Positions 26,473 through 50,332 of a DNA stretch of 64,000 nucleotides are shown piece by piece. The notes beneath the pieces are model-generated. The model ran no database searches and was not told where the DNA came from. It saw only the letters and a list, made by a program, of their open reading frames with translations. The DNA comes from Treponema sp. (GTDB taxonomy: Bacteria; Spirochaetota; Spirochaetia; Treponematales; Breznakiellaceae), in assembly GCA_009777735.1 (NCBI GenBank), contig WRLF01000005.1, positions 1 through 64,000 on the forward strand, in the 5' to 3' direction. The stretch's first letter is position 1; every line of letters begins with the position of its first letter. A program made the position numbers and the translations under genes.

Positions 26473-26632
26473 CCTTGAAAACCACGTTATCCCTATTAAG
26501 GGCAATAGTCAATAATAATGGGATACCGTCAATCTAAAAATATTAATATACATTTCGTAAATATTATATATGCGAATGGCTGGTTTGGTGGTATATTGTA
26601 ATAGGAAAGCAGGTGTTTACTTGGAGGTGTAT

Positions 26633-29600
26633 ATGAAAAACAGGTTTTTAATTGGCGTTATTTTAACCACAATGCTTATTTTTGTGGTTACAGGATGTCC
26701 TTCTCCAACGGGGCCAATTGCAAATATTCAATCATCAATAACAAGGCAGGAGCTTCAGGATAAAGTGGCGGAGGCCAATATTCTGCTGGCAATAACCAGG
26801 GGATCTAACGATGGAAATGATGTGGCGACTACCCAGAAATGGGTTCCGCATGAAGTGTACGATGAATTGGTAAGAGCCCGTGACGAAGCCAGAAGAGTAT
26901 CCCTGCTGCCGAATCCCACGATTGCGGAGATAGAGAATTCATACGACGATATAGTAGCAGCCATTGAGAACGCTGAGGATGATAATGTATGGAATTGGGG
27001 CTTAAGCTGGAGTGCCGCTGACAAAACTGATTTGAATCTAAAAATAATCGATGCTGAAACAGTTATGACAGGTATAATCATCAGCGTGGATGGCACGGAT
27101 TTACCACCATCCATACAATGGGTTACCCAGTTTGTATGGGATAACCTCAATAGCGCTCTCGAAGCGGCCTATATCGTACAGGATGATGACGACGCTACGC
27201 AGGCCGAAATTAATAATGCCGCTACAGTCCTTGAAATAGCCATTAATAACTTTATTCCTGAAAATGGCACCAGTCAAACTCTTTACGGTTTTTTACTGGA
27301 TAATAATGAGATAGAATTGTTTACGTTAACCGGAGCCCAATTTATCAGACCCGCAGATCCGGTTGTTACCATTACCAATACCGGCGTAGAAGCTCTGACT
27401 ATCCTTACGGAAATAACCGGGCCGGGAGGAAATATTTTTTCAATTTCTCCGGCAACCGCGATCATCCCGTCAGGGGATTCGGCAGTATTTACCATTCAAT
27501 TACTGATAAATGATCCCGGCAATAATACATTCGATGCTTTTGTGTTTTTTACAACCGATGACAGCCAGGGCGGACTGCTCAGCAGGGTAGATATCAGTTA
27601 TATTGGCTGTCAGTTTATCAATGTTGACATTGACATTAGCGGCGGCATGCTTTATGTGGGAAAAACCGGTGTATTCGCCACGACGAACGAGCCTGACAAG
27701 GGCTCTAATCCCTGGTACTCCAGTAATAGTTCCGTGGCAGCAATAGACCCGGATACAGGCGAACTCACCATTAACGGATCAGGTGATGTAATAATCGGGT
27801 ATATTCTCAATGCAAATCCTTTGACATTAAAAGGCAGAGTGGTCAGAGTGCCGGTATCCTTGATTCCGAGGTACCCGCTGGAGGCAGGAGTGCTTTCCCG
27901 CCCTGCCGGCAGTACTGCCGGTTTGCTTAACCTGAATGAAATTGACGCGGCGGCATCCGGAAATGAGATCAGATTTACCAGAACCGGTGGTGAAAGCGTT
28001 ATCTCCGCCATAAATGGGACTACCGGAGCATTGACATTCAGAAATGACGCGGCGCCCGGCACAAATTCCGCCATTACGGTAACACTGATAATAGTAAGTT
28101 ATACGCCCGAAGGTGAAATAATAACCCATGCGGGTGATGCCGCTTTTTCCGTGCGGGTTGGGGATGCACCCCCGCCGTTGTTTGTTAGCGCGGGAACAAT
28201 TAACTCGGTAAGCGCTATTCAGACAGTAACGGTCGAGGCAATATTTAACGGAGACATAAGCGCAACCAGCCAGACTCATCATGCCGGATTTACCATCAGC
28301 AGGAATACAACAAATCTGACAATACAAAGTTCAGCCATTGCCAACAACAGAATTATTTTTACCCTGGCCGGCGCCGATCCCATATTGTACGGGCATGTGA
28401 TAACCATAAGCTACAATGATACAGCCGGAACAATAAATAATAACGGTGTCAGTCTTGCAAGTTTCACTGGCCGTCCGGTAACGAATAACTTGCGGGAAGT
28501 TGAACCGGGACCGGCTATGCAGACTGTGGAAATAGACGGCCTGGAGCACAGCATTTCGGACAGGCTGGTAATTACCTACGACAAACCGCCTGTACTGACA
28601 AGCCTTGCGGGTTTCTCAATTGAGAATACCACTGCCGGAGCTTTCGTGTACATGAGCCACAGTGTAAGCGCAAACAGATTAACCATTATTCTGAACCGGT
28701 CGCCTGTCTGGTCGGAAATTACGGCAACAGGCGGCAATGCTCTCCGTGTGGTATATAACGGTGAAACAGGCAATGTCGTAGATGCCGAAGGCTGGCGTAA
28801 GCTGGGAGGATCCGAAACCATTAATTTCACTAATTTTTCCGAAGAAGAATATAATGGGCCGGAAGTTGAAGAAATTACACTGAACGCAAGCGCTTCAACC
28901 AGTCTCGTTATTCAATATACAAAACATCTGAGCGGCGAATCCGGCCGGGGCGGCTTTATGCTGAACGGCGCTCCCGGTGTATCATTTACGAATCATCTGG
29001 TAAGCGGCGATACGCTGACTCTTACATTAAGCAGGGCTCCCGCGGTTGCCGAAGTAGCCGCCGGGCTTACCCTGTCATACAATTCGGTTACCGGAAGTAT
29101 TTCAGACGGACGAAACAGGGCCGAAAGCTTTACGAATATCCCGGTAATAACATCGGGGCAGTTCCAGACACCCCCGGTGCCTGAAAACGCGGCCATTAGT
29201 TCCGATTCACCCACCAGCCTGGTTTTGGGATTTGACAGGGCGGTAAACATTGCCAACACTCAAGGGTTTTCTGTCAGCGGTTCCGCCACAGCCACCAATA
29301 TAATGGCAGTAAGCGGCAGCGGGTCAACAACCCTGACGTTTACCCTGAATCTTAAACCTGCTTTTGGCGAGACTGTAACCCTCAGTTATAACGGGGCATT
29401 GGGCAATGTTGTAGACAACACTGCCTCAGATGTGGCGGTGGCTACGTTTGACAGACAGGTATCACTGACCGGATTTACGGAAAATGATCATGGCAGGCCT
29501 GTTGCTGTCAGCGCTGCCATTGATGCGGGCAGTCCGTTCAGCCAAACAAACGCCAGAAATCTGGTTGTCACCTTTAACAAGGCGGTAACGGCAAATACTA

Positions 29601-31375: not shown

Positions 31376-31398
31376 CAATTTAAAAGGAGAGTATGGCT

Positions 31399-34300
31399 AT
31401 GAAAGAGAAGAGAAAAAAATTGCTTACAGGGTTAAACCTGACGGTTTTAGCGGCAGTATTGGTTTTTAACGCCTGCGAAGGGATAGGCCTGGATATTCCC
31501 CATGCCAGTGTTTTTTCGACAAGGCCGGAACTCACTTTTGCCAGCAGCGAAACGGACAACTGGGGGTTGGCTAATCAGGGGCAGATACAATACAGTTTTA
31601 CCGCCGCGAAAGACAGATTCGGCGGTGAAATTGAAGATGTTACCTATACAGTGTTTGTAGTCCCCGGTGTAGTTTCTGACCATAATGAACTCATTGAAGT
31701 TATTATCGCAGGAGGCCCCGGAACACAGATTTCAGACAATGACGGACTCCCTCTAATGCCGGATACACCGGGCATTTTTGCCGGTACCCCCGGTGTATTG
31801 TACAGCGCCGTGGTGATGGCGGTAAAAGACAACTATACCGATTTTTCCGAGGTTGTGCAGGGGCGGGGGCATTCGGCCTTTGCGGAGCCGCCGGAACTGA
31901 TTTTTTCAAGCGATAATCCAAACTGGATTGCCGCTGACAACGGAAAGATACAATACAGTTTTTCCCCGGCAAGAGACGGTAACAATGCAAGCATCAGCGC
32001 CGCTTATACCGTCTTTATCGCCGAAGGTGAGCATCATGAAGTTGATGATGTGATAGATAATAAAATTTATGAAGAAACAAGGCTTCCCATTGCCGCACAA
32101 GTCTTCACCGGGACCGCAGGCGAATGGTACAGCGCCGTGGTGCGTGTCGAGCTTAATGAAGATAAAGCATATTCATCCGTTGCGCGGGCGCAGGCTTTTG
32201 AATTCGAAGACTTGCAGCAAGGCGACTTTACCACAGCGCCTGTTCTGACTTTTACCAGTGATGTGCCGGAATGGAATAGTGCCAACCAGGGGTGGATTCG
32301 GTACGGATTTACACCGGCTGCCGGCGGAGACTCCGAAGGCGTTATTTACACAGTGTACATTGCGCCCGGACAGATAACAACGGCTGACACTGTCAGGCGG
32401 CAGGGAACGGTATTTACCGGGTTATCCCCCGATACGAATTTTACTTTTTCAGACGGAACACCCGGCTCGTGGTACAGCGCCGTAGTATACGCAAGGAGAG
32501 GAAATTATACCATAACTTCGGCTGTAATCCAGGCGCAGGCATACACTATTTTCAGTACAGCGCCGGTGTTGACTTTTACCGGTGACGGACCCGGTTGGAA
32601 TGTAAATAATTTTGGGCATGTACAGTATAGTTTTACGGCGGCAAAAAATCCCGCCGGCGAAGATATTCCCGGTGTCAGTTATACCGTGTATGTAGCGGAA
32701 GGCCAGATAAATTCCGCCGGTACAGTCATGCAAAGAGCCGAAGTCACCAATACAACCATCCAGCCCGGTGCAGCGGTTTCCTATCCTACAGGGCGGCCGG
32801 ACAGATGGTTCAGCGCTGTAGTGTATGCCGCATTGGACGGGCAGATAATCAACTCGGCTGTTTTACAGGCGCAGGCTTACAAGGGGTATATGGAATTTGA
32901 AGGAACGGGAACTCTGGTATCCCTTGGCAAAACCACGGTGCCGGGCAGATTTACGTACTACGTTGATGCCGAACGCGGGAATGACTCCAATGACGGCAGA
33001 ACTCCCATTACCGCATGGAGAACACTGGAGAAAGTAAATAACACCGTATTCCAGCCCGGTGACCATATTCTTTTGGAAGCTAACAGTATTTGGAACGGCG
33101 TAGGTTCCTACAACAGCAACCGGGCGGCGCATCTGGCGGCGCGCGGCAACGGCGGGATGCTGTCCCCGCAGGGGAACGGCACTGCGGAAAGGCGGATTGT
33201 CATTGACTTATACGACACAGAAGAAGTCAGTGGTATGTTGAATGTGTATTACAGTTCCAATAAACGCCCGATTATTAACGGGAACGGCACTCCGCATCTG
33301 GCAGCCGATAATCCCTACGGAGAGTCCGGTGCCATTAATTTTAATGAACAGGACTTTTGGCATGTGAGAAATCTTGAGGCAACGAACAGTTACCGGTTCC
33401 CCGAGATTGCGTCTAACCCGGATTTGCTCAGAACCCACTGGGATGAGCGGATTGTTCCCAAAAATCTTGCGGTTGTCGCTGTTCATGGCGGTAATCAATA
33501 TCCCAACCATGCGCGCGGCTTCATAATGGAGTACATCTATGCCCATGACGGTCAGACCCTGCATAACAATAACGGTAATTCCTACCGTCAATATACAAGC
33601 AATGAATTCGGTACCCCCGGTACCACTGGGGGCAAGGGCGGCGGTTTCATTGTAGTCGCGACTGAAACAACAGTGCAATACTGCATAGTGAAACGTACCG
33701 GACTGGAAGGCCTGCGTACCCAGCATGGTAACTGGGGCTACAATATGGTTTTCCGGGGCAATTTTATCGAAATGGTTGCCGGAGACGGCATGGTAATGTC
33801 AAGAAGCTATGACTCCCTGGTAGAAAGCAACCTGATCAAGGATGCCAATGCCGGCGATCACGGCAGCGGGAATTACGCTTCCAACTGGGCGTATGTAGCG
33901 AACAGAATTCTGTACCAGTTTAACGAAAGTTATGGAACCATGTACGGCAACCTTGACGGCGAGGCATGGGACGTAGACGGCGAGTGTAACAATGTTATTT
34001 ACCAATATAATTTTAGCCATCATAATGTCGGCGGGACCATACTCTTTATGGGAAGCCAAAACCGTGCTATTTTCCGTTATAACATCAGTGTAAATGACGG
34101 TACCGGCGGTCAATGGCTTGCCGGGCTTACCGACCCAACAACCGATCCCCTCGATCCGCGCGCACAATATGATCGGCCAAACGACCATTCCTATGTAAAC
34201 TATCCCAGAGGGCAGTCTCTGATTCACTATGCCTGGGGCGGTTATACCGACCATTCGAGAGTACCGCTGGTGCATAACAATACATTCTACATCGGGGACG

Positions 34301-35058
34301 GCTATGATGTTGGCATTGTCGGGAATACATCATCTTCAGGTGAATTGAATAAACAGGTGCGGTTTTTAAATAATATCATTGTAAAAGACGGTCCAGTCGG
34401 TGTTGTACGCATCGGCGACAACCACAACCCGCCGACAGCCAGCCGTAATCCCGCTGCCGGAGGTTTCCAGGGCGGCGTTCTCAGGAATAACATTTTCTGG
34501 GCGCCAAACCAGAGCCAGTTTGTAAACAGCGGCAATGCCAACAACGGTTATGGCGGTAATCAAATTGCCAGTATTACGAATAATACCAATCCCGACAGCA
34601 CGCAAACAAGCGGCAATATGTGGATAAACCCTCAATTAAGAATTCAAAGTCTTGATCAAAGCGAAAAGACCGCCATATTCAGGCAATTACGGAATGACCG
34701 GTTACCGCAGACGGACTTTAATGACCCGCAAAAAATCAGGGCTTATGTCAATCCCGACCGCCTGCGTATGAGGGCGCAATGGTTTAGCCCCCAGGCTGGT
34801 TCCCCAGCTATTGAAGCGGGCCGGGTGCTACCGGTAGTAGCCAACTTAACTACAACGGATGCAACTGTTTTGAGAAGCGCATGGAATGGTCACATTCATG
34901 GTCATCAGGCAGCCGGGTATAGATCGGTAGATGAACTTACCGATTATCCAACACCGTGGACAGCCGGTGTCGGCATTACACGAGACTTTTTCAATAACCC
35001 GATTAACACGGCAGCGCCGCCTATAGGCGCAGCCGCCGGACCGGTGGTTATACCGTAG
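31399..35058 (+). CDS. Beta-helix lipoprotein, polysaccharide lyase-like
   Basis: 1219 aa. Hydrophobic leader ending 'VFNAC' (Cys26). Residues ~30-490 hold four repeats of ~110 aa, each with 'LTF.sd.p.W...N.G.I.Y.Ft.a' and ending 'WYSAVV', expected to be beta sandwiches. From about 515 there is a right-handed beta-helix domain starting 'YYVDAERGNDSNDGRTP' and 'QPGDHILLEANSIWNG', the entry motif of pectate/alginate-lyase-like proteins. Its core has 'DGEAWDVDGECNNVIYQYN' and 'NNTFYIGDGY'. The ATG at 31399 has AGGAG 9 nt upstream; one at 31393 is too close. It lies 23 bp after the giant lipoprotein gene and is paralogous to 46307-48970, which has only one N-terminal repeat. A polysaccharide lyase, GH or epimerase is likely; the substrate is unknown. 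Confidence 0.75.
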   Translation: MKEKRKKLLTGLNLTVLAAVLVFNACEGIGLDIPHASVFSTRPELTFASSETDNWGLANQGQIQYSFTAAKDRFGGEIEDVTYTVFVVPGVVSDHNELIEVIIAGGPGTQISDNDGLPLMPDTPGIFAGTPGVLYSAVVMAVKDNYTDFSEVVQGRGHSAFAEPPELIFSSDNPNWIAADNGKIQYSFSPARDGNNASISAAYTVFIAEGEHHEVDDVIDNKIYEETRLPIAAQVFTGTAGEWYSAVVRVELNEDKAYSSVARAQAFEFEDLQQGDFTTAPVLTFTSDVPEWNSANQGWIRYGFTPAAGGDSEGVIYTVYIAPGQITTADTVRRQGTVFTGLSPDTNFTFSDGTPGSWYSAVVYARRGNYTITSAVIQAQAYTIFSTAPVLTFTGDGPGWNVNNFGHVQYSFTAAKNPAGEDIPGVSYTVYVAEGQINSAGTVMQRAEVTNTTIQPGAAVSYPTGRPDRWFSAVVYAALDGQIINSAVLQAQAYKGYMEFEGTGTLVSLGKTTVPGRFTYYVDAERGNDSNDGRTPITAWRTLEKVNNTVFQPGDHILLEANSIWNGVGSYNSNRAAHLAARGNGGMLSPQGNGTAERRIVIDLYDTEEVSGMLNVYYSSNKRPIINGNGTPHLAADNPYGESGAINFNEQDFWHVRNLEATNSYRFPEIASNPDLLRTHWDERIVPKNLAVVAVHGGNQYPNHARGFIMEYIYAHDGQTLHNNNGNSYRQYTSNEFGTPGTTGGKGGGFIVVATETTVQYCIVKRTGLEGLRTQHGNWGYNMVFRGNFIEMVAGDGMVMSRSYDSLVESNLIKDANAGDHGSGNYASNWAYVANRILYQFNESYGTMYGNLDGEAWDVDGECNNVIYQYNFSHHNVGGTILFMGSQNRAIFRYNISVNDGTGGQWLAGLTDPTTDPLDPRAQYDRPNDHSYVNYPRGQSLIHYAWGGYTDHSRVPLVHNNTFYIGDGYDVGIVGNTSSSGELNKQVRFLNNIIVKDGPVGVVRIGDNHNPPTASRNPAAGGFQGGVLRNNIFWAPNQSQFVNSGNANNGYGGNQIASITNNTNPDSTQTSGNMWINPQLRIQSLDQSEKTAIFRQLRNDRLPQTDFNDPQKIRAYVNPDRLRMRAQWFSPQAGSPAIEAGRVLPVVANLTTTDATVLRSAWNGHIHGHQAAGYRSVDELTDYPTPWTAGVGITRDFFNNPINTAAPPIGAAAGPVVIP

Positions 35059-35084
35059 TACATATAAACAATTGGAGGTAAATT

Positions 35085-36854
35085 ATGAAATTGCTTATTG
35101 CTATGCTGATTTTGTTCATGGCAGCCGCCGGCGGTCTTGCGGAAGAGGAAGAACAGGACAATAAACTGTTTTCTTTTGGGGTAGATACGGTTTCGGATGT
35201 ATTTTCCATTCGTTCTTTTAACGGTTCTTTTAACGATGACGACGAAGAAGGCAAAGGTGAAACCGGAAACCCCCTTATTCCTCCGCATAATCCGTTCCCG
35301 TATCAGGGCGGGGCTGAAACAAGGTTGTTTCAACCGCCCGCTTACGGTAACGGTCTGGATATTTGGGTTAAATTTAATTTTGAAACCGAAAAATTTGGCA
35401 CTCTGTTAAAATTATCCGCCTACGGCACCGGGATAAACGATATACATCTGAGCGAATGGAACGGATGGTTTACCCTTGGCCCCTGGTTTGATGATAATAT
35501 CAGCCTCAGGATTCTGGCGGGGAATATCGGCCCGTATGGGAGTATTCCCGCATATCATGTTTCTGACTCTCCGTTATTGTACAAAAAAAATTCAATGGGT
35601 GTTGTAATACCTTCCGGTACCATGACAAGCAGGTATCATGCCAGAAATGTCGTATATATTACCGAAACAAACTTCCCCTATGGCTATTGGAGGCCGGGTG
35701 TTCCCACGGGGTACGCTGAGTTTAACACTGTGGATACGCTCAATGTATTTTCACCGGCCGGTAACATAATCGATCAATCAAGAGAAATCCTGGAACAGTA
35801 TCCTGCTGGTATTCTGTTTGATATTAACACGAAACCGGTAACATTTACACTGGCAATGGGAAATCTTGTGGAAATGATGGGCCGTCCTTTCGCGTCGGCG
35901 TTGGAGTCGTATTGGTCGTTTAATCAAACCGGCAGATATGATCCGCATGGGGATAATTTACTGCTGGACAGGAATTTAAGTGTGGTTTTTCGCGCGGAAA
36001 GCGCCAGAATAATGGATCTTTTTATGGTTTCGGCTGTGTATAAATATAGAGAGATGGGCATGACAAAAAAATCCGGACCAGCCGGCACCTTTTTCCATGC
36101 TATAGATACAAAAGGCCAAACCCACGAATTCGGCATATTTTTTAATGTAGATGAGCTGCCGTTTTTCCCGGCTCTGGGGGTAACTCTCGGTTATTCAGGG
36201 CTTTACGAAGTATGGAACACCAGTGTATTAAATGATTTGAGGAGCGCCAACTTCCCGGGGAATGCCGCCGAAAAAGAACTTTTATGGTGGGCGCAATGGA
36301 AAAAAGCCGAGCTTCCGTTTTACAATGGCATTGATCTGAGGTTACATTACAACGGGATTGAAAACCTTGGCATATCTTTTAATAATAATGTGACGTTCGC
36401 CTCGGTAAACGGATTTAATGAAAATCTGGTCACTCATAGCAATGACCCGGATTTTAGAACCGGGGATCTATACAGGCCTGCATGGATATACGAGTATTGG
36501 CTGGTAGATAATGACAATCTGTCAGAAAGATATTTTGGATTGAACAATGTCCTGGGAGCAAGCTATCAGGTAAATGAAACGCTGATTGTGGATTTACAGA
36601 TTGCCAACCAGTTAGGTCTTTTTACATTAAAACAGGGAAAAACCACTGTGGCAACCGCTATAATAAACCGTTTTGAAATTTATGGCGGCGCCGGTTTACA
36701 TTTCGCTTACGGAAAACATTTTAACGCAAAACTGACGGGCGGCTTGTTATTCGCATTAAATACATTTTCTTATGAGGAGCCTGAATTCAGGGCAAGATCT
36801 AATGCGGGTTATGTTGATTTTGCCATTCCTCTGGGCATTCATGTTTCATATTAA
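35085..36854 (+). CDS. Putative outer-membrane beta-barrel protein, copy 1
   Basis: 589 aa. Signal peptide with cleavage near 'AAAGGLA-EEEE'. The mature part is rich in alternating aromatic/polar strands. The C-terminus 'IHVSY' ends in tyrosine preceded by alternating hydrophobics, the BAM recognition pattern of Gram-negative barrels. Family landmarks shared with the two paralogues are 'NPFPYQGG', 'LRLHYNGIENLGISFNNN', 'YFGLNNVLGASYQ' and 'YKYREMGMTKK'. GGAGG precedes the ATG. It sits in an operon 26 bp after the beta-helix lipoprotein and 10 bp before its paralogue. No known family is recognised. A porin or glycan conduit is the favoured guess because it always sits beside the beta-helix lipoproteins. 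Confidence 0.65.
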   Translation: MKLLIAMLILFMAAAGGLAEEEEQDNKLFSFGVDTVSDVFSIRSFNGSFNDDDEEGKGETGNPLIPPHNPFPYQGGAETRLFQPPAYGNGLDIWVKFNFETEKFGTLLKLSAYGTGINDIHLSEWNGWFTLGPWFDDNISLRILAGNIGPYGSIPAYHVSDSPLLYKKNSMGVVIPSGTMTSRYHARNVVYITETNFPYGYWRPGVPTGYAEFNTVDTLNVFSPAGNIIDQSREILEQYPAGILFDINTKPVTFTLAMGNLVEMMGRPFASALESYWSFNQTGRYDPHGDNLLLDRNLSVVFRAESARIMDLFMVSAVYKYREMGMTKKSGPAGTFFHAIDTKGQTHEFGIFFNVDELPFFPALGVTLGYSGLYEVWNTSVLNDLRSANFPGNAAEKELLWWAQWKKAELPFYNGIDLRLHYNGIENLGISFNNNVTFASVNGFNENLVTHSNDPDFRTGDLYRPAWIYEYWLVDNDNLSERYFGLNNVLGASYQVNETLIVDLQIANQLGLFTLKQGKTTVATAIINRFEIYGGAGLHFAYGKHFNAKLTGGLLFALNTFSYEEPEFRARSNAGYVDFAIPLGIHVSY

Positions 36855-36864
36855 GAGGTGCAAA

Positions 36865-38586: not shown

Positions 38587-38620
38587 GCTTGTAAGGAATG
38601 CTATAGTTTCGTCAGGTAAT

Positions 38621-39685: not shown

Positions 39686-39796
39686 AGTGGTTCTCCCCGC
39701 ATTATGATAATGATTAAGGGTAATTTATGGTAAAAACAGGTATTAATCAATATACATTTTTTGATAAAAAGAGTATTTTTTTAAAATCTTTACTGA

Positions 39797-39802
39797 TATA
39801 AT
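39797..39802 (+). promoter_or_regulatory. Probable -10 element of the membrane AraC gene
   Basis: A perfect TATAAT lies 18 nt upstream of the ATG at 39820 in a strongly AT-rich stretch, giving a very short leader. No matching -35 is seen 16-18 bp upstream. The RBS of the gene is also weak (TTTGGAT). Confidence 0.4.
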
Positions 39803-39819
39803 TTTTTTGGATCATTAGA

Positions 39820-42057
39820 ATGCAAAAACAACGACAGATTTTCGCCAGTTTCTCGCTGTCTTTTCTGTTTTTTATTATTATTCCCGTACTGGTATTTAAT
39901 ATAGCCATCTGGCTGGCAATCAGGGTGACAGGCAATAATGAGCGCCAGAACATGGTAGTCCGCCTTTCCGAGAGCAGCGGCAGAATGGATATCTGGATAC
40001 GGGATATCCAGAATATGGTAACGAGGCTGCGCAGGAACGAGCAAATTCGCGCTTTGGAACGGATGGACAGTTCCGAAGACGCGGAATATTTTACTGTCTG
40101 GCTTGCCATACAGAGTCTTCTCAGGATGGATATTCCCACACAGGGGCTGGATATAATGGTGTTCTGTCAAAACACCGGCCGTGTTCTGAGCCCCGGTTTT
40201 CTGGCGGGCAATATGAGCGAAGCCTGGGGCAGCAGTTTCCAATTCGGGGATTATGATTATTCCGGTTTTCTTGATTATTTTTGTTTTTCCGGTTTTCGGC
40301 CGGTATTTTTCCCCGGTATGGATACTATTTGGGAGAACACCCCTCACCGGGGAATGCTGTACGGGATGCGCCTTGATGTCAACAGTGAAATGTATACTTT
40401 TTCCCTCCTGCGGGAACAACGCATACGGGAGCATTTCTCCCCGGTGTTTTCCGGCGGCGGCGCTCTGTATATCTATGACGCATCGGGTTCTGTGCTGATC
40501 TCCCTTGGCGGCGGATTCCCTGCTGAACAATTGGATCCGGCGTTATTTGCGGGAAACGGGCTGCTTCCCGATGGTTTTTGGGGGCCGGGAATTATAGGTG
40601 CATACTCCCATTCCGATCACGGACTGTTTTATGTATCCGCGCTGAGTACTGAAGCCGCGTTGTATAATGTGCAGCGCTTATGGAATATTACGGTTATAAT
40701 CAATATTACTGCCATATTTCTTACTCTGGGATATGCTGTATTTTTAGCCGCATGGAACACGAAGCAAGTCGGCGAGGCCTTCCAGTTATTAAGCAAAGCC
40801 CCCGGCTTCTCCTCCTATGAAAAAGGAAATGCTCTGCGGTATTTAAATAATTCCGTGAAGCAGCTTGTCAGCGCCAATGTCCGGTTCAGGAAGGATGCCG
40901 ATTCCCGTTACGAAATACTCAAAGTGGCCTATATTGACCGGCTTCTCAACGATGAATGGGAAACGCCTCAAAAAGCGGCCGCATTGGCTGAATATGCGGG
41001 TATCTCCGTTACCGGGCGGCGCTTTTGCGTAATCCTGCTCGTGATAGGAGCGAAGAAAATAGATGAAGTCAATGCAACCGAAACATACCACCGGATTCAT
41101 GATATTTTGGAAAAGACATTGCCCGCAGATGAGGCAGTAATGTACAACCGCAATCCGGGCCGTATAGGGATTTTTCTTTTTCTTAAACCGGAACATTGGG
41201 CTGATTATAAAAAATATCTGGAAAACATTTTTCAAAACACAGTAATTCCGGATATAACAGAGCATTATAAGCTCATTGGAAGCCCTCTGTATGAAGATAT
41301 TTTTGAAATACGGGAAGCTTACCAGCTTTGCAGGGAATATGCCCTTATACATGACAATCTGGAAGACAGGCACCTGTATTGGATTGACCCTATCTTGCCC
41401 CTGCTGCATCAACAGATGATATTTTCCTTTCCTCTTGAGGTAGAACAAAAGCTCATTAACCAGCTGCGATGCGCTGATTTTGAAAATGCCCGCAATTTAA
41501 TTCAGGCAGTATTTAATGCCAATGTGCGGGAAATCCGCCTCAGCGAGCGCATGCTTATGATTTTCTACGCGAACCTCCAGGGCAGTTTTCTTAAATCTTT
41601 GGAAGGTTCTTTGGCGGATTTTTGGCGTGACGCCATTGAAGACCTGGACTTTAACTATTTGCCGCAGGAAATGGAAGAGATTTTTATTGAGCTTGCTCGC
41701 AGCATTTGCTCCTCTTCCCATGCGGAGCTTTCGAAGAAAAATTTTTTCATTAAAAAAGAAGACCTTGTCGCCTGGGTGGAAGAACACTTTAGTGAGGAAC
41801 GGCTTTCCCTGGGGCTGGCGGCCCGTCATTTCGGTTTCTCTGAATCGTATTTTTCCCAAATGTTCAAGGAAATTACCGGCGAAAATTTTTCTGTTTTTGC
41901 GGAACAAACCCGGCTGAACCATGCCCGGCTTCTGCTCAGGCAGCATCTAAAAATCGAAGAAGTCGCCTATCGCTGCGGTTACAGTTCAGCCAATTCATTC
42001 CGGCGAGCGTACAAGCGGCATTTCGGCATAAATCCCGCCCGTACACCTCCGAATTAA
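39820..42057 (+). CDS. Membrane-bound AraC-family regulator with extracytoplasmic sensor
   Basis: 745 aa one-component regulator. TM1 (about 11-33) and TM2 (about 288-311) flank a ~250-residue extracytoplasmic domain. A long cytoplasmic linker precedes an AraC DNA-binding domain with 'LAARHFGFSESYFSQMFKE' and 'IEEVAYRCGYSSANSFRRAY'. The layout is like the YesM sensor fused directly to an AraC output. No kinase or receiver motif is present, so signalling would pass through the membrane directly. It lies between the two beta-helix/barrel clusters, is divergent from the foldase gene, and its stop codon overlaps that of the 42054 lipoprotein in a shared TTAA. It is a natural candidate regulator of the glycan-capture genes. 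Confidence 0.85.
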   Translation: MQKQRQIFASFSLSFLFFIIIPVLVFNIAIWLAIRVTGNNERQNMVVRLSESSGRMDIWIRDIQNMVTRLRRNEQIRALERMDSSEDAEYFTVWLAIQSLLRMDIPTQGLDIMVFCQNTGRVLSPGFLAGNMSEAWGSSFQFGDYDYSGFLDYFCFSGFRPVFFPGMDTIWENTPHRGMLYGMRLDVNSEMYTFSLLREQRIREHFSPVFSGGGALYIYDASGSVLISLGGGFPAEQLDPALFAGNGLLPDGFWGPGIIGAYSHSDHGLFYVSALSTEAALYNVQRLWNITVIINITAIFLTLGYAVFLAAWNTKQVGEAFQLLSKAPGFSSYEKGNALRYLNNSVKQLVSANVRFRKDADSRYEILKVAYIDRLLNDEWETPQKAAALAEYAGISVTGRRFCVILLVIGAKKIDEVNATETYHRIHDILEKTLPADEAVMYNRNPGRIGIFLFLKPEHWADYKKYLENIFQNTVIPDITEHYKLIGSPLYEDIFEIREAYQLCREYALIHDNLEDRHLYWIDPILPLLHQQMIFSFPLEVEQKLINQLRCADFENARNLIQAVFNANVREIRLSERMLMIFYANLQGSFLKSLEGSLADFWRDAIEDLDFNYLPQEMEEIFIELARSICSSSHAELSKKNFFIKKEDLVAWVEEHFSEERLSLGLAARHFGFSESYFSQMFKEITGENFSVFAEQTRLNHARLLLRQHLKIEEVAYRCGYSSANSFRRAYKRHFGINPARTPPN

Positions 42058-44591
42058 TTTTCCCAGTTGTCCGGGGCAAACACAGGCTTTGTGATTTGTC
42101 CAAGAGAGTTAGAGTTATGGTGACCGGGTTTAATACCCTGGGTAAACAGCATGACATTTTCGCCTGCATCGGCATTACGGTACCAGTGATCGCCGGTATT
42201 GCCGTTTCTTGTTCCGAATTGCACGGCGACATTTGTCCGGCGGGTGCCCTGGTTATATGTGTTTGTATTATCCGCTATAACCCCGCCGGTTTTCTGGAGC
42301 GTGCCGCTGAGCATAATGCCGCCGGCGGATACCAGGGGGTTCGCTCCGCTGTTGCCGGTGAATGCATTGCCCGTTACGCTGCCGCCGGTCATGTAGAATG
42401 CATGCATGTTGGCCCGGTTTTGCGACGCGCTGCCTTCAGCATTCTGAATGCTGCCAAAACCGGTAATCCCGCCGCCGTGCGTATAAACGGGCGTGCCGCT
42501 GCTGCCGTTTGTAAGGGTATTGTTGCTGACTTCCCCGTCGTGCATCACAAAGTACGCCATACAAAACAAAGCTATCCCGCCGGCGTTTACATGCCTGCCG
42601 GTCATAGTCAGGGTGTTATTCGTAACTTTCCCGCTGTTCATAATGAAATAACCCTGGCCGTGCTGGTTGCTTTGTTCCCAGCCGTCGTCAACCCACATAG
42701 CGACACCTGCTGCTCCATTACCGTCTCTGCGGTTGCCGCGGATTTCCCCGCCGTCCAGGATCAGCCTGCCGCCGTCCCGCACATCAATAAGCGCGGCATT
42801 GTTGAGGCTGCCTGTTGCGCTTGTGTGTGTAAAAGCAACATTTTGTTCAATGATAAGGGTGATACCGTTCCTGATAACCATGGCGGAACCGTTGCCGCTT
42901 ACCGTGATCACTTTTTCGTTTGAGTCCGCACTGGCAAGGACAATGGTAAAACCGGCGCTGGGCATGAGCACCTGGCCTCCGGAAACTGTGACATTATTGG
43001 AGAACTGCGCCTGGGTAAATGTTCCTGCGCGGGCCGGAGCCGCCGTGTCGTATGTCTGGTTTTCTCCCAGAACGATAGTATATGTTCTGCCGTTAGCCTG
43101 GGAGTTGGCGTTTGTTATCAGCCAGTCAATGGCCCTCTGGTACAGTGTACCAGCAGGGGTTGCGGCAACGGCGCCTACCGCTGTGCCGTCCTGGTAAAAA
43201 CCGGCTGTAGTAGAAGAAAACCCGCCCCTTGGCACAAGATTTTTTACGATAAATTCCTGCATGGGCTTAATCGGATAGCCGATTTCTTCAACGGCAGAAA
43301 ATTCTTCTGTTACCGCCAGGCGAATTATTTCACCGTGTCTTGCAGCTCCGCTCATGGTGAGCGTCCAGGTATCGGCAAACGGGCCGCCTCCCACCGGAAC
43401 CGGCGAACTAACCGTCCGTGTTGTCATTGCCATGTCCAGCAGGGGTGCGGAATTATTGCCGAAATTTCCAATACGTACAGGAGGCTGGTCGTTTACTTTT
43501 ATTGTAAAGGCTGCCGCATTATCAATGCGGACCGGCTCGCTGAAAGAAATCTGTATCTGGTTTGAAGCGCCGGTAAGGACCTCCGCTTTGGTAATCCAGA
43601 TATCTTTATCATGGAGAATGCGGTTGTCTACTGGTTGATCGGTGAAAGACACAATGGGAAATGAATTATTATGGAATGAAACCAGCGAACCGGCAGCGGC
43701 ATTATAGCTTATTGTTACATCATCTTCATATATGATGTTGATTCCCATTGAAAATGTAATAACTGCGCCGTCTATTACCGCCGATGTAACGGGAAGTGTT
43801 GCCCTGCGCCTGCTGATAGTAAAACCATTTCCTGGATTACCCGCACCGGCGGATACCTCCGCGTCAAAGTGCAGCTCTATCGTCGTGGTAGATATGGCAT
43901 ACTCATCAGCGGGAACAGCCTGCGCCAGGGCAAACACGGGAGGCACAAATTGGTAGCCGTTTACCGGAGTAAAGCTGTCTGCCGCTGTTCCCAGGTCTAT
44001 CAGCGCCTGATTCACCATGTATTGATCTGCCGTAGTATCATTAAATACATCCAGTGCCGTATCCCGCGCGGCTAATAACTCGTCATACATCGCCTGCGTT
44101 ACCCACTGATGGTTTTGCGGGACATCCTGACCGTTTTCGCTTATTCTCACCTGGTCAAGGCGCACGTCAACCTCAAGGATTAAAAGAAACAATGCTTCCT
44201 TGTCAATGGCGCTTGTCCCGGAAGCCGGATGAAAATTATCCAGTGCGTCCACAATATCCATAACAGCCGCTGCTATTGTTCTGCTGGTAGCCGCTGGATC
44301 GTTAAAGACATCTATTCCGTTTTCCAGCGCATTTTCCAGAGCTGCATATACCGGCGGCAGCACCCACTGCAGGAATGTGGGTACATCAGCGCCGTCCAGG
44401 CTTGGGAGAACGCCGTCCATTCTTTGCTCGGCTTCGCTTATCCTTGTCCCCAGCCCGGCTTTGTTTACCGGCGGCGGTGGCGGCACTTTCATTTCAGGAT
44501 CATTCGGACACCCTGTGAACAGCACGCCCGCAGTAAGCGTGGCAAGCAGTATCAGCCAGCTTATGCCGGTTTTTCCTAAAATACCGTTCAT
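42054..44591 (-). CDS. Multidomain lipoprotein: FIVAR repeats, SwmB-like domain, C-terminal beta-helix
   Basis: 845 aa. Lipobox 'LFTGC' gives Cys28. Two FIVAR-like segments follow ('FLQWVLPPVYAALENALEN' and 'NHQWVTQAMYDELLAARDT', about 45-215), then one SwmB-like domain ('ISTTTIELHFDAEVSAG...NGFTIS'), a block with 'TAGFYQDG', and a parallel beta-helix ('ITLIIEQNVAF', 'GGRLILDGGEIRGN', 'MHDGEVSNNTL', 'MTGGSVTGN'). It ends 'FAPDNWEN', very like the 50352 protein. It is a shorter version of the 26633 product, with fewer repeats. AGGAGG is upstream. It is the last gene of the minus-strand cluster after the beta-helix and barrel genes. A surface glycan adhesin/receptor is proposed, not shown. Confidence 0.75.
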   Translation of the reverse strand: MNGILGKTGISWLILLATLTAGVLFTGCPNDPEMKVPPPPPVNKAGLGTRISEAEQRMDGVLPSLDGADVPTFLQWVLPPVYAALENALENGIDVFNDPAATSRTIAAAVMDIVDALDNFHPASGTSAIDKEALFLLILEVDVRLDQVRISENGQDVPQNHQWVTQAMYDELLAARDTALDVFNDTTADQYMVNQALIDLGTAADSFTPVNGYQFVPPVFALAQAVPADEYAISTTTIELHFDAEVSAGAGNPGNGFTISRRRATLPVTSAVIDGAVITFSMGINIIYEDDVTISYNAAAGSLVSFHNNSFPIVSFTDQPVDNRILHDKDIWITKAEVLTGASNQIQISFSEPVRIDNAAAFTIKVNDQPPVRIGNFGNNSAPLLDMAMTTRTVSSPVPVGGGPFADTWTLTMSGAARHGEIIRLAVTEEFSAVEEIGYPIKPMQEFIVKNLVPRGGFSSTTAGFYQDGTAVGAVAATPAGTLYQRAIDWLITNANSQANGRTYTIVLGENQTYDTAAPARAGTFTQAQFSNNVTVSGGQVLMPSAGFTIVLASADSNEKVITVSGNGSAMVIRNGITLIIEQNVAFTHTSATGSLNNAALIDVRDGGRLILDGGEIRGNRRDGNGAAGVAMWVDDGWEQSNQHGQGYFIMNSGKVTNNTLTMTGRHVNAGGIALFCMAYFVMHDGEVSNNTLTNGSSGTPVYTHGGGITGFGSIQNAEGSASQNRANMHAFYMTGGSVTGNAFTGNSGANPLVSAGGIMLSGTLQKTGGVIADNTNTYNQGTRRTNVAVQFGTRNGNTGDHWYRNADAGENVMLFTQGIKPGHHNSNSLGQITKPVFAPDNWEN

Positions 44592-44603
44592 GTAATGTTC
44601 CTC

Positions 44604-46271
44604 CTAATACTGTACCCTTAACGAAACAGGAATGCCAAATTCAATAACCCCGGCTCTATGGGTGTTAATTTCCCTTTGCCCCTGGATAATCCTCTGATGC
44701 GCGAATGATGATAAACGCAAATCCAGACCGCCCCGGAGAGTACCTCTGACCCTGTCATTGCTTATGCTGAAAACATCACAGGATACGCCCAGATAAGCCC
44801 CCAGATAATGGGTATAGCTGACCGGGTTATCCCCTTCATCCCATTGCAGTATGAATACTCCCATCTGGCTGGAAACGGATGCTTCAGCGGATAAAGTTTC
44901 GTTCACCGCATACCGTGCGCCCAGCGCGTTAAAAATACCGGTATACTGCTCTCTGCGGTTTTCCCCGCCGCCGCCGTGGTTTCCAAGCAAGTTGGAATAA
45001 GCCCACCCCTGGCTGAACATACCTTTTTCAAATTCTTCCGTAGTTAACCCGCGCACTCTGGCGTACGTAAAATTGTTGTTTGAGGTGAATGTGAATTTTT
45101 CCAGTCCGGTATAAACAAGACGCAGGTCAATGCCGTGATATATGGGCATCCTGGCTTTGCCGTATTGAGACAGCTCACGATCAGGATCACTGTTGTCCAC
45201 AGTGGTTACTAAATACAAAGTGTTCGTCCACGTCTGGAACAGCCCTGAATACCCGACTGAAACACCCAGATCTTCAAGAGGAGAAAAGTTTGCATACAAT
45301 CCGTAGGCATGGTTTGTTTTCCTTTCTTCAATGCTGTTTGACGGATTGGGTGCGGTCAATTTTGTGAGGAACGATTCGGTATATTTATAAACCGCAGCGA
45401 AAGATATAAAATCGGCGATTTGCGCACCTTCTACCCTGACTCCAAAATTAATGCCCCCTATGGCGGCCGGATCATGTACATTATCCCAAAGTATCGCCCT
45501 CATATCTTCACCCCGATCAGAATTAAAAGGATCATTTGTGGGTACGGAATCGTTTTCGAATAAACCGCCGGTGGCAAGAGTAACGGTAAACGGATGAAAT
45601 ACAAAATCGGTCAGGATATTGAGGTTCCTGCGGATATTAAAACCTACCGGCATGAACAAGTCGGCGGTATCCGTGCTGTAAAAACTTACAAAACCAAAAT
45701 CATCGCCCATGGCATCATAACCGTAGGGGAATCCTGCCGTTGTGTCAAAATTATTGCCAAAAACAAAGTTCCCGTTTTTTCTCCAGACGGGATACAAAAC
45801 ACCAAAACTCCCGACGTATGCTTTCAGGAAGCCATCAAAGTTGTTAAATCGGGGGAGCTGTCCGCCCTGGCCGGTGTTGCCGGCAAGAACACGAAGATCA
45901 AACGTATCAAACAGTGAGTTGAACCGCAGCCATGCAGACCAATCAACATCTCTATGTGAGGAATCGTCGGTTGACATCCGCAACTGCATGGATCCGCCCA
46001 GATTTTCGGCGTTGTAGGCAAAGCCCACCCTGCCCTTGATGCCGTCGTCAAACGCAGAACTCTGGAAAAATTTACTTTGTCCAAGCCCCTGGTAACGGTA
46101 TGGGCTGCCGGCAATATCAGGCGTTTTGCATGTATAGTCACCGGTATATCTCCTGATATACATGGCATCGACAACACCGTCCACTGTCACCGAAAATACA
46201 CTGTCCTCATCTGCGCTGAGAAATGCGGGAATTAAGGTGCAAAAAGCAATTACGAACACAATCTTTTTCAT
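44604..46271 (-). CDS. Putative outer-membrane beta-barrel protein, copy 3
   Basis: 555 aa, same family as 35085 and 36865. The signal peptide ends near 'PAFLSA-DED'. Family landmarks are 'PYRYQGLGQSKFFQSSAF', 'FDLRVLAGNTGQGG', 'IYHGIDLRLVYTGLEKFTFT', 'SNNNFTYARVRG' and 'EQYTGIFNALGARYAVNE'. The C-terminus is 'VSLRVQY', ending in tyrosine as expected for a barrel. The ATG at 46271 has AGGAG 6 nt upstream; the adjacent ATG at 46274 is rather close to it. It lies between a beta-helix lipoprotein and a FIVAR lipoprotein gene. Confidence 0.65.
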   Translation of the reverse strand: MKKIVFVIAFCTLIPAFLSADEDSVFSVTVDGVVDAMYIRRYTGDYTCKTPDIAGSPYRYQGLGQSKFFQSSAFDDGIKGRVGFAYNAENLGGSMQLRMSTDDSSHRDVDWSAWLRFNSLFDTFDLRVLAGNTGQGGQLPRFNNFDGFLKAYVGSFGVLYPVWRKNGNFVFGNNFDTTAGFPYGYDAMGDDFGFVSFYSTDTADLFMPVGFNIRRNLNILTDFVFHPFTVTLATGGLFENDSVPTNDPFNSDRGEDMRAILWDNVHDPAAIGGINFGVRVEGAQIADFISFAAVYKYTESFLTKLTAPNPSNSIEERKTNHAYGLYANFSPLEDLGVSVGYSGLFQTWTNTLYLVTTVDNSDPDRELSQYGKARMPIYHGIDLRLVYTGLEKFTFTSNNNFTYARVRGLTTEEFEKGMFSQGWAYSNLLGNHGGGGENRREQYTGIFNALGARYAVNETLSAEASVSSQMGVFILQWDEGDNPVSYTHYLGAYLGVSCDVFSISNDRVRGTLRGGLDLRLSSFAHQRIIQGQREINTHRAGVIEFGIPVSLRVQY

Positions 46272-46306
46272 CATTTTCTCCTTATCTAAAAATTTTAGCC
46301 CCTAAA

Positions 46307-48970
46307 TTATCGGGTGGGGTCGTATCTGGCATGGTCAAAATACCCCTGACTTGCACCGACCGCGGGCGGGTTTGTAATTGGATAACCAAAGAAACACAGC
46401 ATCTGCGCATTCGCTGCGGGAACACTGGGAATGTTCCCTACGGTCCTGTCCATTGTCCGGAAACCATCGTTCCAGCCGCCGTCTATGGTTGGGCCGGCTG
46501 TGCCGGGAATAACCATGCCTACCCGTAAAGCATTCAACGCTGCCTGATCAACGGGCATGAACAGGCTGGCACGGTTGCGCAGCCGTTCCCTGCTGGTAAA
46601 TGCCGCAAGCCTGTCAGGATCATTGTTGTTTTGATCCGTGTCGGCAAAAACCGTATTGCGCTGCTGGCGAAGCACCGCATACATACCCGGCTCCGAAATT
46701 TTCAGCCGGGGGTTGAACCAGCGGTTTCCAAACTGCGTTGTCAGTTCCTCAATGGCCATACCGGCGCCGTTTCTGATGCGGGTATAATCGCCCACAGCCG
46801 GGTTCTCGCGGTAGGCCCATAATACATTGTTTCTGAAGCCCGATGCCGGATTGATGATAAACCCGTCAGGGTGGCCGCTGCCTGACTGCCCATAAGACAG
46901 GTGCAAAATGCCGTCTCCGGCCTTGAGTATGATATTATTATAAAAACGGACATATTTGCTCACCGCTGCTGCTGCGTTATGCCCGACCAAGCCGACCGAA
47001 TTAACATTAGGCCCGATAAAAAATGTATTGTTGTAAATCAGGGGGACGTTGGCATGGGCCGTTGTACCCGTATACGTGTAGTGGAAAATATTCTGACCGT
47101 TATTCCAGCTTGTGTATGAATTCGCATTTGTGTTGACAGGAGGCGCGTCAGGAGGGGCAAAACCGTCATTCTGGAGCGCGTGCATGAACCTGGTACCGGC
47201 GCCGTCATTGGCGCTGATATTGTAGCGGAAAATACCGTTGGACGTGCCCATCATAAGCAGCGACCCGCCGGCATTGTGGTGGCTGTAGTTGTACTGGTAA
47301 ATTGTTTCATTCGAGTTGATATCAATGTCCCAGGCTTCACCGTCATTCCAGCCATACACCGTGCCGTAGGCCTCGTTAAACTGGAACAGGGTGTAGCGGG
47401 AGTTCATCGCCCAGCATGCCGCAAAATTCCCCGTGCCGTGGTTGGGCGCAGCGCTTGTTTCCTTGAAAACATTGTGCTCAATTCTGCTCCATTCGGAGGG
47501 GTTGCCTCTCGTAGAACTGATTACCAGACCGTCGCCGAAAATATCTTCGATATAGTTTCCGATAAAATTATTCAGCTTGCTCATATACCGGTCGCTTGTA
47601 TACGTCCGTATACCCATGTATGAGGCGCGCCGGACAATATTATGCTGCACTGTTGATTCGGTAAATGATACGGCAATTCCCCCGCCGGCTTTACCCGGCC
47701 GGCCGTTATCAAAACCAAAATAATTGTGCCGCCAGTCCGCCGCAATATCCTGGTTGTTGCTGTGCAGGCTCTGAATGTCATGGGCATAGATATGCTCAAT
47801 CAATATTCCGGTAATGGGTACTTCGTTATAGTCTGCGCGCACATAGACTCCGTATAAGGGTTTGGGAACCCCAAAGTGCGGTTCTCTTGAGTCATAAGCC
47901 CCAATTATTGATGGGTATCTTGATGTATTGTAGCTCCATTTGAGCCAGTGCCGTTCGCGCAGACCCGGAATCTCCGCAAGAAAGGGGAAGTCAAAGCTGT
48001 TCGTAACCTCTATGTTACGGATATGCCAGTGCGACTGGTCATTCATGTGTATGGCGCCTGAGTTCGCGTACGGGTTATCGCCATCTATGTAGGGCGTCCC
48101 GTTACCGTTAATAATGGGGCGAATATCGGCGCTGTAGTAAACGGCTTTGATAATATCGTCTTCTTTTTCTACCCTGTAGAGGTCTATTACAATGGGCCGA
48201 CCAGGAGCGCCTTCGCCACGGGGGCGGAGCATCCCGCCGTTGCCCCGTTCATTCCTTTGCTGTACAAAGTTGTCCCTCGTTACGGAGACGCCGTTCCACG
48301 TGCTGTTTGCTTCCAATAGAATATGATCGCCAGGCAGGAACTCGGGGTGGTGGTTTACCCTCGTCAATGTCTTCCAGGCTGACAGGGGGCTTAAACCGTC
48401 ATTTTCGTCATCCCCGTTTTCCCAGTCAATGAAGTACGTTCTGGCCCCCTGCACAGTCGTTCTGCCGCGTGACTGCAATGTACCGGTTCCCTGGCTCTCT
48501 GTCAGGCCGCTGAATGAAGAGGACTGCCGGACTGCCGAAACCGCTTCGTCTTCTCCCCGGCTGGCAACGACAACAGCGCTGTACCATTCTCCCGGATTCC
48601 CCGCAAAATTATATTCTATGCCGCTAAGTCTTTCTGTTACCAGAACATAATCCTGACGAATGCGGGCGGCCTCGTTCACAATGCCCTCGGCGAAATATAC
48701 GGTATATGTTACATTGTTGCCGGGAGATGCAGGGGTAAAACTGAACCGGATCCGGTCTCTGTCGTATGGCCCTCCGCCCTGTATATCCCCGGAAAATGTC
48801 AGAACCGGCGCGGCGGTAAAAACACCGGACAAACTCGGCCCTTCCGGATCAGTTAACGGAAAAGCCACATTCCCGGTTACCAGACCGTCCACAAGACAAC
48901 CGGTACATACCAATACCGCGGCAAGCGTGAACAAACCCGGCATCTGCCGTCTCCAACGCATTTTTTTCAT
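46307..48970 (-). CDS. Beta-helix lipoprotein, polysaccharide lyase-like (paralogue)
   Basis: 887 aa. Lipobox 'VCTGC' gives Cys25. One N-terminal sandwich repeat ('VLTFSGDIQGGGPYDRDRI' to 'WYSAVVVAS') precedes the right-handed beta-helix domain with 'YFIDWENGDDENDGLSP', 'LPGDHILLEANSTWNGV', 'DGEAWDIDINSNETIYQYNY' and 'YNNTFFIGPN'. It is a close paralogue of 31399-35058 that lacks three of the four sandwich repeats, so the lyase-like domain is the conserved functional part. GGGAGTG precedes the ATG. It is the first gene of the minus-strand cluster, with a promoter and half TTGCAC site upstream. An extracellular lyase or glycosidase acting on surface polysaccharide is likely, but activity is not proven. 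Confidence 0.75.
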   Translation of the reverse strand: MKKMRWRRQMPGLFTLAAVLVCTGCLVDGLVTGNVAFPLTDPEGPSLSGVFTAAPVLTFSGDIQGGGPYDRDRIRFSFTPASPGNNVTYTVYFAEGIVNEAARIRQDYVLVTERLSGIEYNFAGNPGEWYSAVVVASRGEDEAVSAVRQSSSFSGLTESQGTGTLQSRGRTTVQGARTYFIDWENGDDENDGLSPLSAWKTLTRVNHHPEFLPGDHILLEANSTWNGVSVTRDNFVQQRNERGNGGMLRPRGEGAPGRPIVIDLYRVEKEDDIIKAVYYSADIRPIINGNGTPYIDGDNPYANSGAIHMNDQSHWHIRNIEVTNSFDFPFLAEIPGLRERHWLKWSYNTSRYPSIIGAYDSREPHFGVPKPLYGVYVRADYNEVPITGILIEHIYAHDIQSLHSNNQDIAADWRHNYFGFDNGRPGKAGGGIAVSFTESTVQHNIVRRASYMGIRTYTSDRYMSKLNNFIGNYIEDIFGDGLVISSTRGNPSEWSRIEHNVFKETSAAPNHGTGNFAACWAMNSRYTLFQFNEAYGTVYGWNDGEAWDIDINSNETIYQYNYSHHNAGGSLLMMGTSNGIFRYNISANDGAGTRFMHALQNDGFAPPDAPPVNTNANSYTSWNNGQNIFHYTYTGTTAHANVPLIYNNTFFIGPNVNSVGLVGHNAAAAVSKYVRFYNNIILKAGDGILHLSYGQSGSGHPDGFIINPASGFRNNVLWAYRENPAVGDYTRIRNGAGMAIEELTTQFGNRWFNPRLKISEPGMYAVLRQQRNTVFADTDQNNNDPDRLAAFTSRERLRNRASLFMPVDQAALNALRVGMVIPGTAGPTIDGGWNDGFRTMDRTVGNIPSVPAANAQMLCFFGYPITNPPAVGASQGYFDHARYDPTR

Positions 48971-49003
48971 AAAAACACTCCCGAATAACAGTAATGTGCC
49001 TAT

Positions 49004-49057
49004 AATATAATATGGTTATGAAAAAAAACAATTACATATTTTCAGGTAAGGGTGCAA
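49004..49057 (-). promoter_or_regulatory. Promoter and partial TTGCAC site of the minus-strand beta-helix cluster
   Basis: -10 TATATT (49004-49009) and -35 TTGTTT (49026-49031) are 16 bp apart on the minus strand. The -35 is abutted by ATGTAA (49032-49037), and TTGCAC (49052-49057) lies 20 bp further upstream. The sequence between them ('CCTTACCTGAAAAT') resembles the spacer at 54078-54104. Confidence 0.5.
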
Positions 49058-49152
49058 TTTCTTTGTTTTCGAGGAATTTCACACGGTGGACACGGAGGAA
49101 TGAAGAAATTTGGGGAGAAAAAATAGTGTGCTGTTAATGGGGGGGATGCATA

Positions 49153-50016: not shown

Positions 50017-50069
50017 ATACTATATATGGCGGGAAAAGCCGTTTTGCTTTAGTGTCAAGATTTTTTTCG

Positions 50070-50183
50070 TTAAGATTGTGCTTGTTCTTTTTTATCCAGG
50101 TAGGGTTTTATAGCTAAACCGAATATGCTAAATGCGATTGACAGGCACATAATGCCTATGATGACATACAGCGTAATTTCCAT
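50070..50183 (-). CDS. Possible 37-aa single-pass membrane peptide
   Basis: A short reading frame encodes 'MEITLYVIIGIMCLSIAFSI' followed by a charged C-terminal tail ending 'KKEQAQS'. One hydrophobic helix spans about residues 5-27. GAGGAG lies 11 nt before the ATG, which is good for so short a gene. It lies between the terminator of the 50352 lipoprotein gene and the Rpn gene. No family is recognised; an accessory membrane peptide or a chance frame are both possible. Confidence 0.4.
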   Translation of the reverse strand: MEITLYVIIGIMCLSIAFSIFGLAIKPYLDKKEQAQS

Positions 50184-50185
50184 AG

Positions 50186-50299: not shown

Positions 50300-50332
50300 A
50301 AAAAAAGCCGCCCGGCGATGCGGGCGGCTTTT
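50300..50332 (-). terminator. Rho-independent terminator of the 50352-54029 lipoprotein gene
   Basis: Minus-strand transcript forms a perfect GC stem, GCCGCCCG / CGGGCGGC, with a 6-nt loop, followed by seven T residues (50300-50306). It begins about 20 nt after the stop codon of the lipoprotein gene. Confidence 0.9.

Follow-up and report, generated by a model that had tools for sequence, protein, structure and literature searches.

A repeated module of GH136-like enzyme and barrel genes as a candidate glycan-utilisation core in a Treponema-like spirochaete

Results

In a 64,000-nucleotide stretch of DNA from a Treponema sp. draft genome (bases 1-64000 of contig C5, which has 159,585 bases; hereafter the window), a repeated gene module was found that probably forms the outer-envelope core of a glycan-utilisation system in this Treponema-like spirochaete. 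Its constant pair would be a lipoprotein glycosidase of glycoside hydrolase (GH) type GH136 and an adjacent, plug-less, porin-like barrel. The usual companions appear to be a large repeat-rich lipoprotein with domains of adhesion or sugar-binding type and a membrane-anchored protein resembling LnbY, the putative second subunit or chaperone of the enzyme. This reading rests on homology, conservation of catalytic residues, operon-like spacing, co-occurrence and glycan context. The draft genome (2.69 Mb, 83% complete) was compared with 195 genomes of its family and with a phylum sample of 392 genomes.

The initial annotation had described three protein types (a FIVAR lipoprotein, a beta-helix lipoprotein and a barrel) occurring together twice, in a plus-strand cluster of four genes with two barrels and a minus-strand cluster of three. 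Both clusters were found as claimed, all seven genes being open reading frames at the positions given, and the observation holds as a whole. The genes of the sets that lie in the window are as follows.

26633-31375, + strand: set 1 FIVAR, SWM-repeat and repeat-rich (beta-helix-like) lipoprotein P0001; lipobox VTGC
31393-35058, + strand: set 1 GH136-like lipoprotein P0002; beta-helix enzyme domain preceded by four Fn3-like repeats at the N-terminus; motif DGEAWDVD; lipobox by eye
35085-36854, + strand: set 1 barrel protein 1 (P0003), by homology to P0006
36865-38586, + strand: set 1 barrel protein 2 (P0004, from a later Met), by homology to P0006
38621-39685, - strand: LnbY-like protein; NF047894 at E 4.2e-5; N-terminal membrane anchor by eye; paralogue beside set 3
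42054-44591, - strand: set 2 FIVAR, repeat-rich (beta-helix-like) lipoprotein P0005; lipobox FTGC
44604-46274, - strand: set 2 barrel P0006 (structure modelled), by model and alignment
46307-48970, - strand: set 2 GH136-like lipoprotein P0007; one N-terminal repeat; motif DGEAWDID; lipobox by eye
50352-54029, - strand: orphan FIVAR, F5-8 type C, repeat-rich lipoprotein P0008; 46% identity to P0005 over 665 amino acids
60054-61472, - strand: set 3 protein of 472 amino acids with an F5-8C domain
61502-64000, - strand: C-terminal part of the set 3 lipoprotein of 1452 amino acids; F5-8C, Fn3_assoc and List_Bact repeats; continues to C5:65860

The two clusters are homologous as proposed, but the genome holds four sets: five barrels were found with one barrel as query, and four enzyme genes with a beta-helix enzyme profile. 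Set 1 (26633-38586, its first base being the ATG of the lipoprotein form of the P0001 gene) reads repeat-rich lipoprotein, enzyme, barrel, barrel, with the convergent LnbY-like gene at 38621-39685. Set 2 (48970-42054) runs from the enzyme through the barrel to the repeat-rich lipoprotein. Set 3 (C5:71512-58147), partly inside the window and continuing beyond its end, comprises the LnbY-like gene, enzyme, barrel, the 1452-residue lipoprotein, the F5-8C protein and a GH29 gene, while set 4, on contig C32, consists of a truncated repeat-rich lipoprotein gene, enzyme and barrel. Enzyme and barrel genes are 12-32 bp apart in this genome. Recent duplication of the sets was rejected, the identity matrix placing the set 4 enzyme at 57% to that of genome G142 versus 41-46% to the other three of its own genome. 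The set 4 lipoprotein (L012:3-752, at the end of C32) is a C-terminal piece only, with no signal peptide, and in the DNA upstream no N-terminal part could be read in three frames (decay or misassembly).

The enzymes P0002 and P0007 match over 877 amino acids at 40% (E 1e-170), and the C-terminal half that the two FIVAR lipoproteins had been said to share was recovered over 590 amino acids at 30% (E 4e-45). Both E-values are far beyond chance. The label polysaccharide-lyase-like, under which the enzymes had been introduced, proved wrong, and the enzymes are GH136-like. No polysaccharide lyase family was matched in Pfam, NCBIfam or PDB, and Pfam returned one sub-threshold Beta_helix match and almost nothing else for the eight enzyme members from the family genomes. 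The profile of these eight matched in PDB four lacto-N-biosidase sequences and 7v6m (7e-25 to 1.8e-32), the last named as a Fibronectin type III domain-containing protein and carrying the same active-site motif. By sequence, homology to GH136 extends over the beta-helix catalytic domain. The NCBIfam LnbX model NF047897 was matched by seven of the eight, and since the scores fall far below its 2500-bit equivalog cut-off, the enzymes were regarded as distant relatives and not as equivalogs of LnbX.

The motif NExYGxxYGxxDGEAxDxD is present in all eight members, and the first and last Asp of DGEAxDxD align with the Asp pair of LnbX and ErLnb136. According to the excerpted text on ErLnb136, D568 is the acid/base, D575 the nucleophile and W548 the galactose platform (PMC7335108). 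The two Asp residues were mapped to chain positions 570/577, and W548 likewise, with a presumed offset of two. This catalytic pair, seven residues apart, is kept in full by every member (8/8). The PDB sequence 24mr has Ser at the last Asp position, as in a nucleophile mutant. The cutting role that had been proposed for the module stands in so far as a cutting enzyme is predicted; its type (GH136) and the LnbY-like partner had not been named.

The same excerpts state that GH136 enzymes need a second, helical subunit, with a peptidyl-prolyl isomerase as nearest fold (PMC7335108). The product of 38621-39685 matched no Pfam family. Three of the five LnbY-like members match the NCBIfam LnbY model at E up to 0.1. 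With a three-member profile, LnbY-like genes were found in four of the 195 genomes, namely this one (two copies), G059, G142 and G180, and all four possess the barrel. A putative second-subunit homologue is thus carried by three of the four genomes with the enzyme; none was detected in G126 with this profile. The complete LnbY-like proteins begin with a membrane anchor that by eye looks uncleaved. Such an anchor would place the active site in the periplasm, unless the LnbY-like proteins act only as chaperones.

Regarding the barrel, said to end in tyrosine, the three window proteins do so, and their relatives end in Phe or Tyr. Full-length alignment to P0006 gives 32% for P0003 and 30% for P0004. 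As anticipated, structure prediction of P0006 yielded a barrel, with modelled strands starting at residue 27, directly after the signal peptide. In fold comparison the model resembled passive porins, with AlgE and Wzi among the matches; no TonB receptor was among the 50 matches listed (VIA-align), which excludes nothing. The Pfam matches (E up to 1) of nine barrels included no Plug or TonB receptor model, and no sequence relation to substrate-specific porins was detectable. Two named barrel relatives come from Treponema sp. metagenome-assembled genomes.

More distant barrels were also observed. At L013:731-10554 (G011), two of them stand in tandem with two lipoprotein-like genes, with no GH136-like or evident glycan genes, and from this locus a broader barrel-lipoprotein family may exist. 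At L037:1-7644 (a metagenome-assembled Treponema sp.), a barrel of 25% identity has as neighbours a GH4 enzyme, genes of an ATP-binding cassette (ABC) importer and a lipoprotein-like gene that the end of the contig truncates.

The name FIVAR-SwmB-beta-helix, given to the repeat-rich lipoproteins, was retained in part. SWM passes its cut-off in P0001 only, FIVAR scores 14.8-21.2 bits against a Pfam cut-off of 29.2, and the beta-helix has no library support, being based on repeats seen by eye and on the strand pattern of a poor model. The latter, of P0005 (predicted local distance difference test, pLDDT, 44.1; predicted template-modelling score 0.48), was too poor for searching, and its strand pattern fits a beta-helix. 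Besides the two FIVAR lipoproteins described earlier, the window contains a third, P0008, and the 1452-residue lipoprotein of set 3 is weakly linked to the P0001/P0005 family at its C-terminal end (24%, 9e-5). The N-termini of the lipoproteins were assessed by eye; a strict lipobox pattern, applied alongside, fits P0001 and P0005 and not P0002, P0007 or P0008.

It was proposed that the three-gene neighbourhood would recur in related genomes, and its composition was indeed found in three other genera. The eight-member profile identified eight full-length enzymes in the 195 genomes: four here, two in G180 and a single one each in G126 and G142 (genera g1, g33, g38 and g55). Each enzyme gene has a barrel gene as its same-strand neighbour. 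Seven enzymes lie directly upstream of the barrel; the remaining one (G180:C9) lies downstream of its barrel and is fused to a FIVAR-like region. Conversely, nine of the ten close barrels stand in a set with an enzyme, eight adjacent to it and the second barrel of set 1 one gene further. The tenth, in G059, starts at a contig edge, where the enzyme would be expected. With G059 included, the module genomes number five (completeness 74-91%).

The overlap between genomes with the barrel (5 of 195) and with the enzyme (4 of 195) has P 8.6e-8 assuming independent genomes, which they are not fully. Enzyme-profile members outside this genome were found via their barrels; what is non-circular in the pairing is that the 195 genomes yielded no full-length enzyme without a neighbouring barrel. 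Enzyme and barrel distances are correlated over the eight pairs (r 0.71; 18 of 40320 permutations). For some genomes of the family and phylum scans, scoring covered only some of the initial candidates, so weak members may be missed. Short stretches matching the GH136 profile were left out of the enzyme counts.

In G059 (L039:590-2860), the lipoprotein after the barrel has the N-terminal repeats of the enzyme linked to a calcineurin-like phosphoesterase, so the enzyme modules may be exchangeable. A convergent LnbY-like gene follows, an arrangement as in set 1.

The glycan surroundings pointed out by the initial annotation were confirmed, with GH29 twice, GH95, GH20, GH3, L-fucose isomerase and ABC components around the window sets. 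The neighbouring features are listed below.

11757-13550, + strand: L-fucose isomerase
13649-15397, - strand: GH3
16278-18212, - strand: GH29 fucosidase
21515-23342, - strand: two ABC permeases
23437-26505, - strand: response regulator (23437-24690) and histidine kinase (24697-26505), divergent from set 1
39820-42057, + strand: AraC-type regulator between sets 1 and 2
54132-55733, - strand: GH20 hexosaminidase
55661-58123, + strand: GH95
58147-60168, - strand: GH29 fucosidase with F5-8C domain, downstream of set 3

A tRNA-Cys gene (13608-13679) overlaps the 3' end of the opposite-strand GH3 frame by 31 bases. Beyond the window lie GH3, GH2, GH30 and L-arabinose isomerase genes. A promoter and terminator scan of 38000-55000 was uninformative (22 promoters versus 23.9 expected; 29 terminators versus 21.0 expected, standard deviation 4.6).

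The glycan context is tighter in G142, where thirteen genes follow one another on the same strand with every gap at most 55 bp. The run opens with repeat-rich lipoprotein, enzyme, barrel, UxuA, a mannitol-dehydrogenase-type (UxuB-like) protein, PfkB kinase and GH2, and continues with a binding protein, two permeases, GH29, the LnbY-like gene and UxaC (Pfam). A histidine kinase and a response regulator are convergent at its downstream end; the like pair in the window is divergent from set 1.

Discussion

The reading given at the outset would imply the following sequence of steps. A fucosylated glycan could be held or presented by the repeat-rich lipoprotein; a two-subunit GH136 enzyme, together with the fucosidases, GH20 and GH3, would release oligosaccharides; these may cross the outer membrane through the barrel by facilitated diffusion, and ABC importers would carry them into the cell. 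The simplest common cargo is a glycan with fucose and uronic acid, and arabinogalactan and Lewis-a plant N-glycans are presumably candidates. As to the membrane side on which the enzyme would act, the LnbY anchor points to the periplasm and the adhesin-like domains to the surface.

Several observations weigh against this reading. The match of the window LnbY-like protein to NF047894 is weak (23.5 bits versus a 400-bit cut-off, E 4.2e-5), its set 3 paralogue reaches E 0.058, the G059 fragment gave no match, and a PDB search with the LnbY-like proteins found no relative. An LnbY-like gene is missing beside sets 2 and 4, and none was detected in G126. The P0006 model has a mean pLDDT of 56.7, with values >70 mostly only in parts of the C-terminal half. 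Of ten loci of weak barrel relatives inspected by eye, eight are devoid of evident glycan genes; the other two are L037, with GH4 and ABC genes, and L043, where a GH3-like gene lies several kilobases away. The module is rare (5/195 family genomes), a full-length barrel or enzyme was found in the phylum sample of 392 genomes in this genome only, and the distance correlation is partly due to shared host ancestry. The galactose-platform position is occupied by Met (three), Tyr (four) or Ile (one), with Trp in register in none of the eight; in G180:C208, an inserted column next to the platform-position Tyr contains a Trp. GH112 is the phosphorylase of the lacto-N-biose pathway and the usual partner of lacto-N-biosidases. 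None of the five module genomes yielded it, although six of the 195 have it. One of these six matches (G178) is a fragment of 37 positions; GH112 genes (L101-L105) were observed in five same-genus genomes where the module was not found. The substrate is probably not plain lacto-N-biose, because GH112 was not found and the galactose-stacking Trp is replaced.

A lesser possibility, to be taken seriously, is that the barrel is an ordinary substrate porin, that the GH136-like enzyme and its LnbY-like partner are periplasmic, that the lipoproteins are not surface machinery and that the neighbourhood reflects co-regulation. The uncleaved-looking LnbY anchor, which would put an active heterodimer in the periplasm, and the predicted resemblance of the barrel to passive porins both speak for it. 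However, the FIVAR-like (below cut-off), F5-8C and SWM domains of the partner lipoproteins would be typical of exposed proteins, and the one-to-one pairing of enzyme and barrel types exceeds the needs of co-regulation. That the module is instead a surface adhesion or envelope-structure system, with lipoproteins as adhesins, the barrel as anchor or export pore and incidental glycan neighbours, is improbable: it would suit the adhesin-like domains, the G059 repeats that carry a phosphoesterase and not a glycosidase, and the fold matches to AlgE and Wzi (export or surface polysaccharide), but not the two catalytic Asp kept in 8/8 enzymes, the LnbY-like partner in 3/4 enzyme genomes, or the uronate, fucosidase and ABC run of G142.

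The glycan-utilisation reading can be extended, in a form that we consider rather doubtful, to a TonB-independent counterpart of SusCD. Each barrel would then dock its own cognate enzyme lipoprotein, an exchangeable part (GH136-type, or the G059 phosphoesterase). Cutting and uptake would be united in a single complex of the outer membrane, in which the LnbY-like protein would complete the enzyme, and the whole unit of glycosidase, dock and pore would have spread between spirochaete genera.

To our knowledge, the passage of oligosaccharides across the outer membrane of gut spirochaetes devoid of SusC/SusD is poorly understood. The excerpts of a termite-gut Treponema study name no outer-membrane uptake protein (PMC6298952). 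With its one-to-one link to a GH136-type enzyme, the barrel family offers a concrete candidate pore with a predicted cargo class, and the pairing places an enzyme type of human-milk and mucin degraders in a diderm envelope. The GH136-like enzyme and the new predicted outer-membrane pore family together make a testable candidate for glycan uptake in spirochaetes.

Porin, envelope glycosidase and ABC importer form a known general layout. In view of this layout and of three TonB-plug proteins elsewhere in the genome, the original description of the module as an independent solution to glycan capture was too strong. That interpretation was supported in part: the predicted barrel, the composition conserved in three other genera, the glycan context and the absence of SusD were upheld. 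PF07980 gave 0 matches in this genome (83% complete), with a positive control in Bacteroides. A TonB-free organism was rejected on account of the three plug-domain proteins; one of them (L127:2828-5467) is on the same contig, some 30 kb past set 3, and its neighbours are by eye acyl-transfer and LolA-like genes, not glycan genes.

The module shares with the GH136 lacto-N-biosidases (LnbX/LnbY of Bifidobacterium longum, ErLnb136 and RhLnb136) the beta-helix catalytic domain, the Asp pair, a putative second-subunit homologue in the genome and fucosidases in the locus. Unlike them, the enzyme here is a lipoprotein in a diderm, has N-terminal Fn3-like repeats and stands beside an outer-membrane barrel, with no GH112 found and the galactose-stacking Trp not in register. 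Among the matches listed, the titles and abstracts on GH136 lacto-N-biosidases and on GH136 in Treponema reported no GH136 in a diderm envelope, and those on Treponema barrels and glycans and on spirochaete utilisation loci did not describe the module. Termite-gut Treponema carbohydrate-active enzyme clusters likewise contain clustered glycosidases, GH95 included, whereas the excerpted text describes no outer-membrane barrel, GH136 or LnbY (PMC6298952). As in the SusC/SusD loci of Bacteroidota, a comparison by function only, barrel, lipoproteins, glycosidases and regulators are clustered; in contrast to these, the genome has no SusD and the barrel has no plug domain and a passive-porin-like model. 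From Occ/OprD, LamB, ScrY, chitoporin, AlgE and Wzi, the barrel is distinguished by its constant pairing with a GH136-type lipoprotein.
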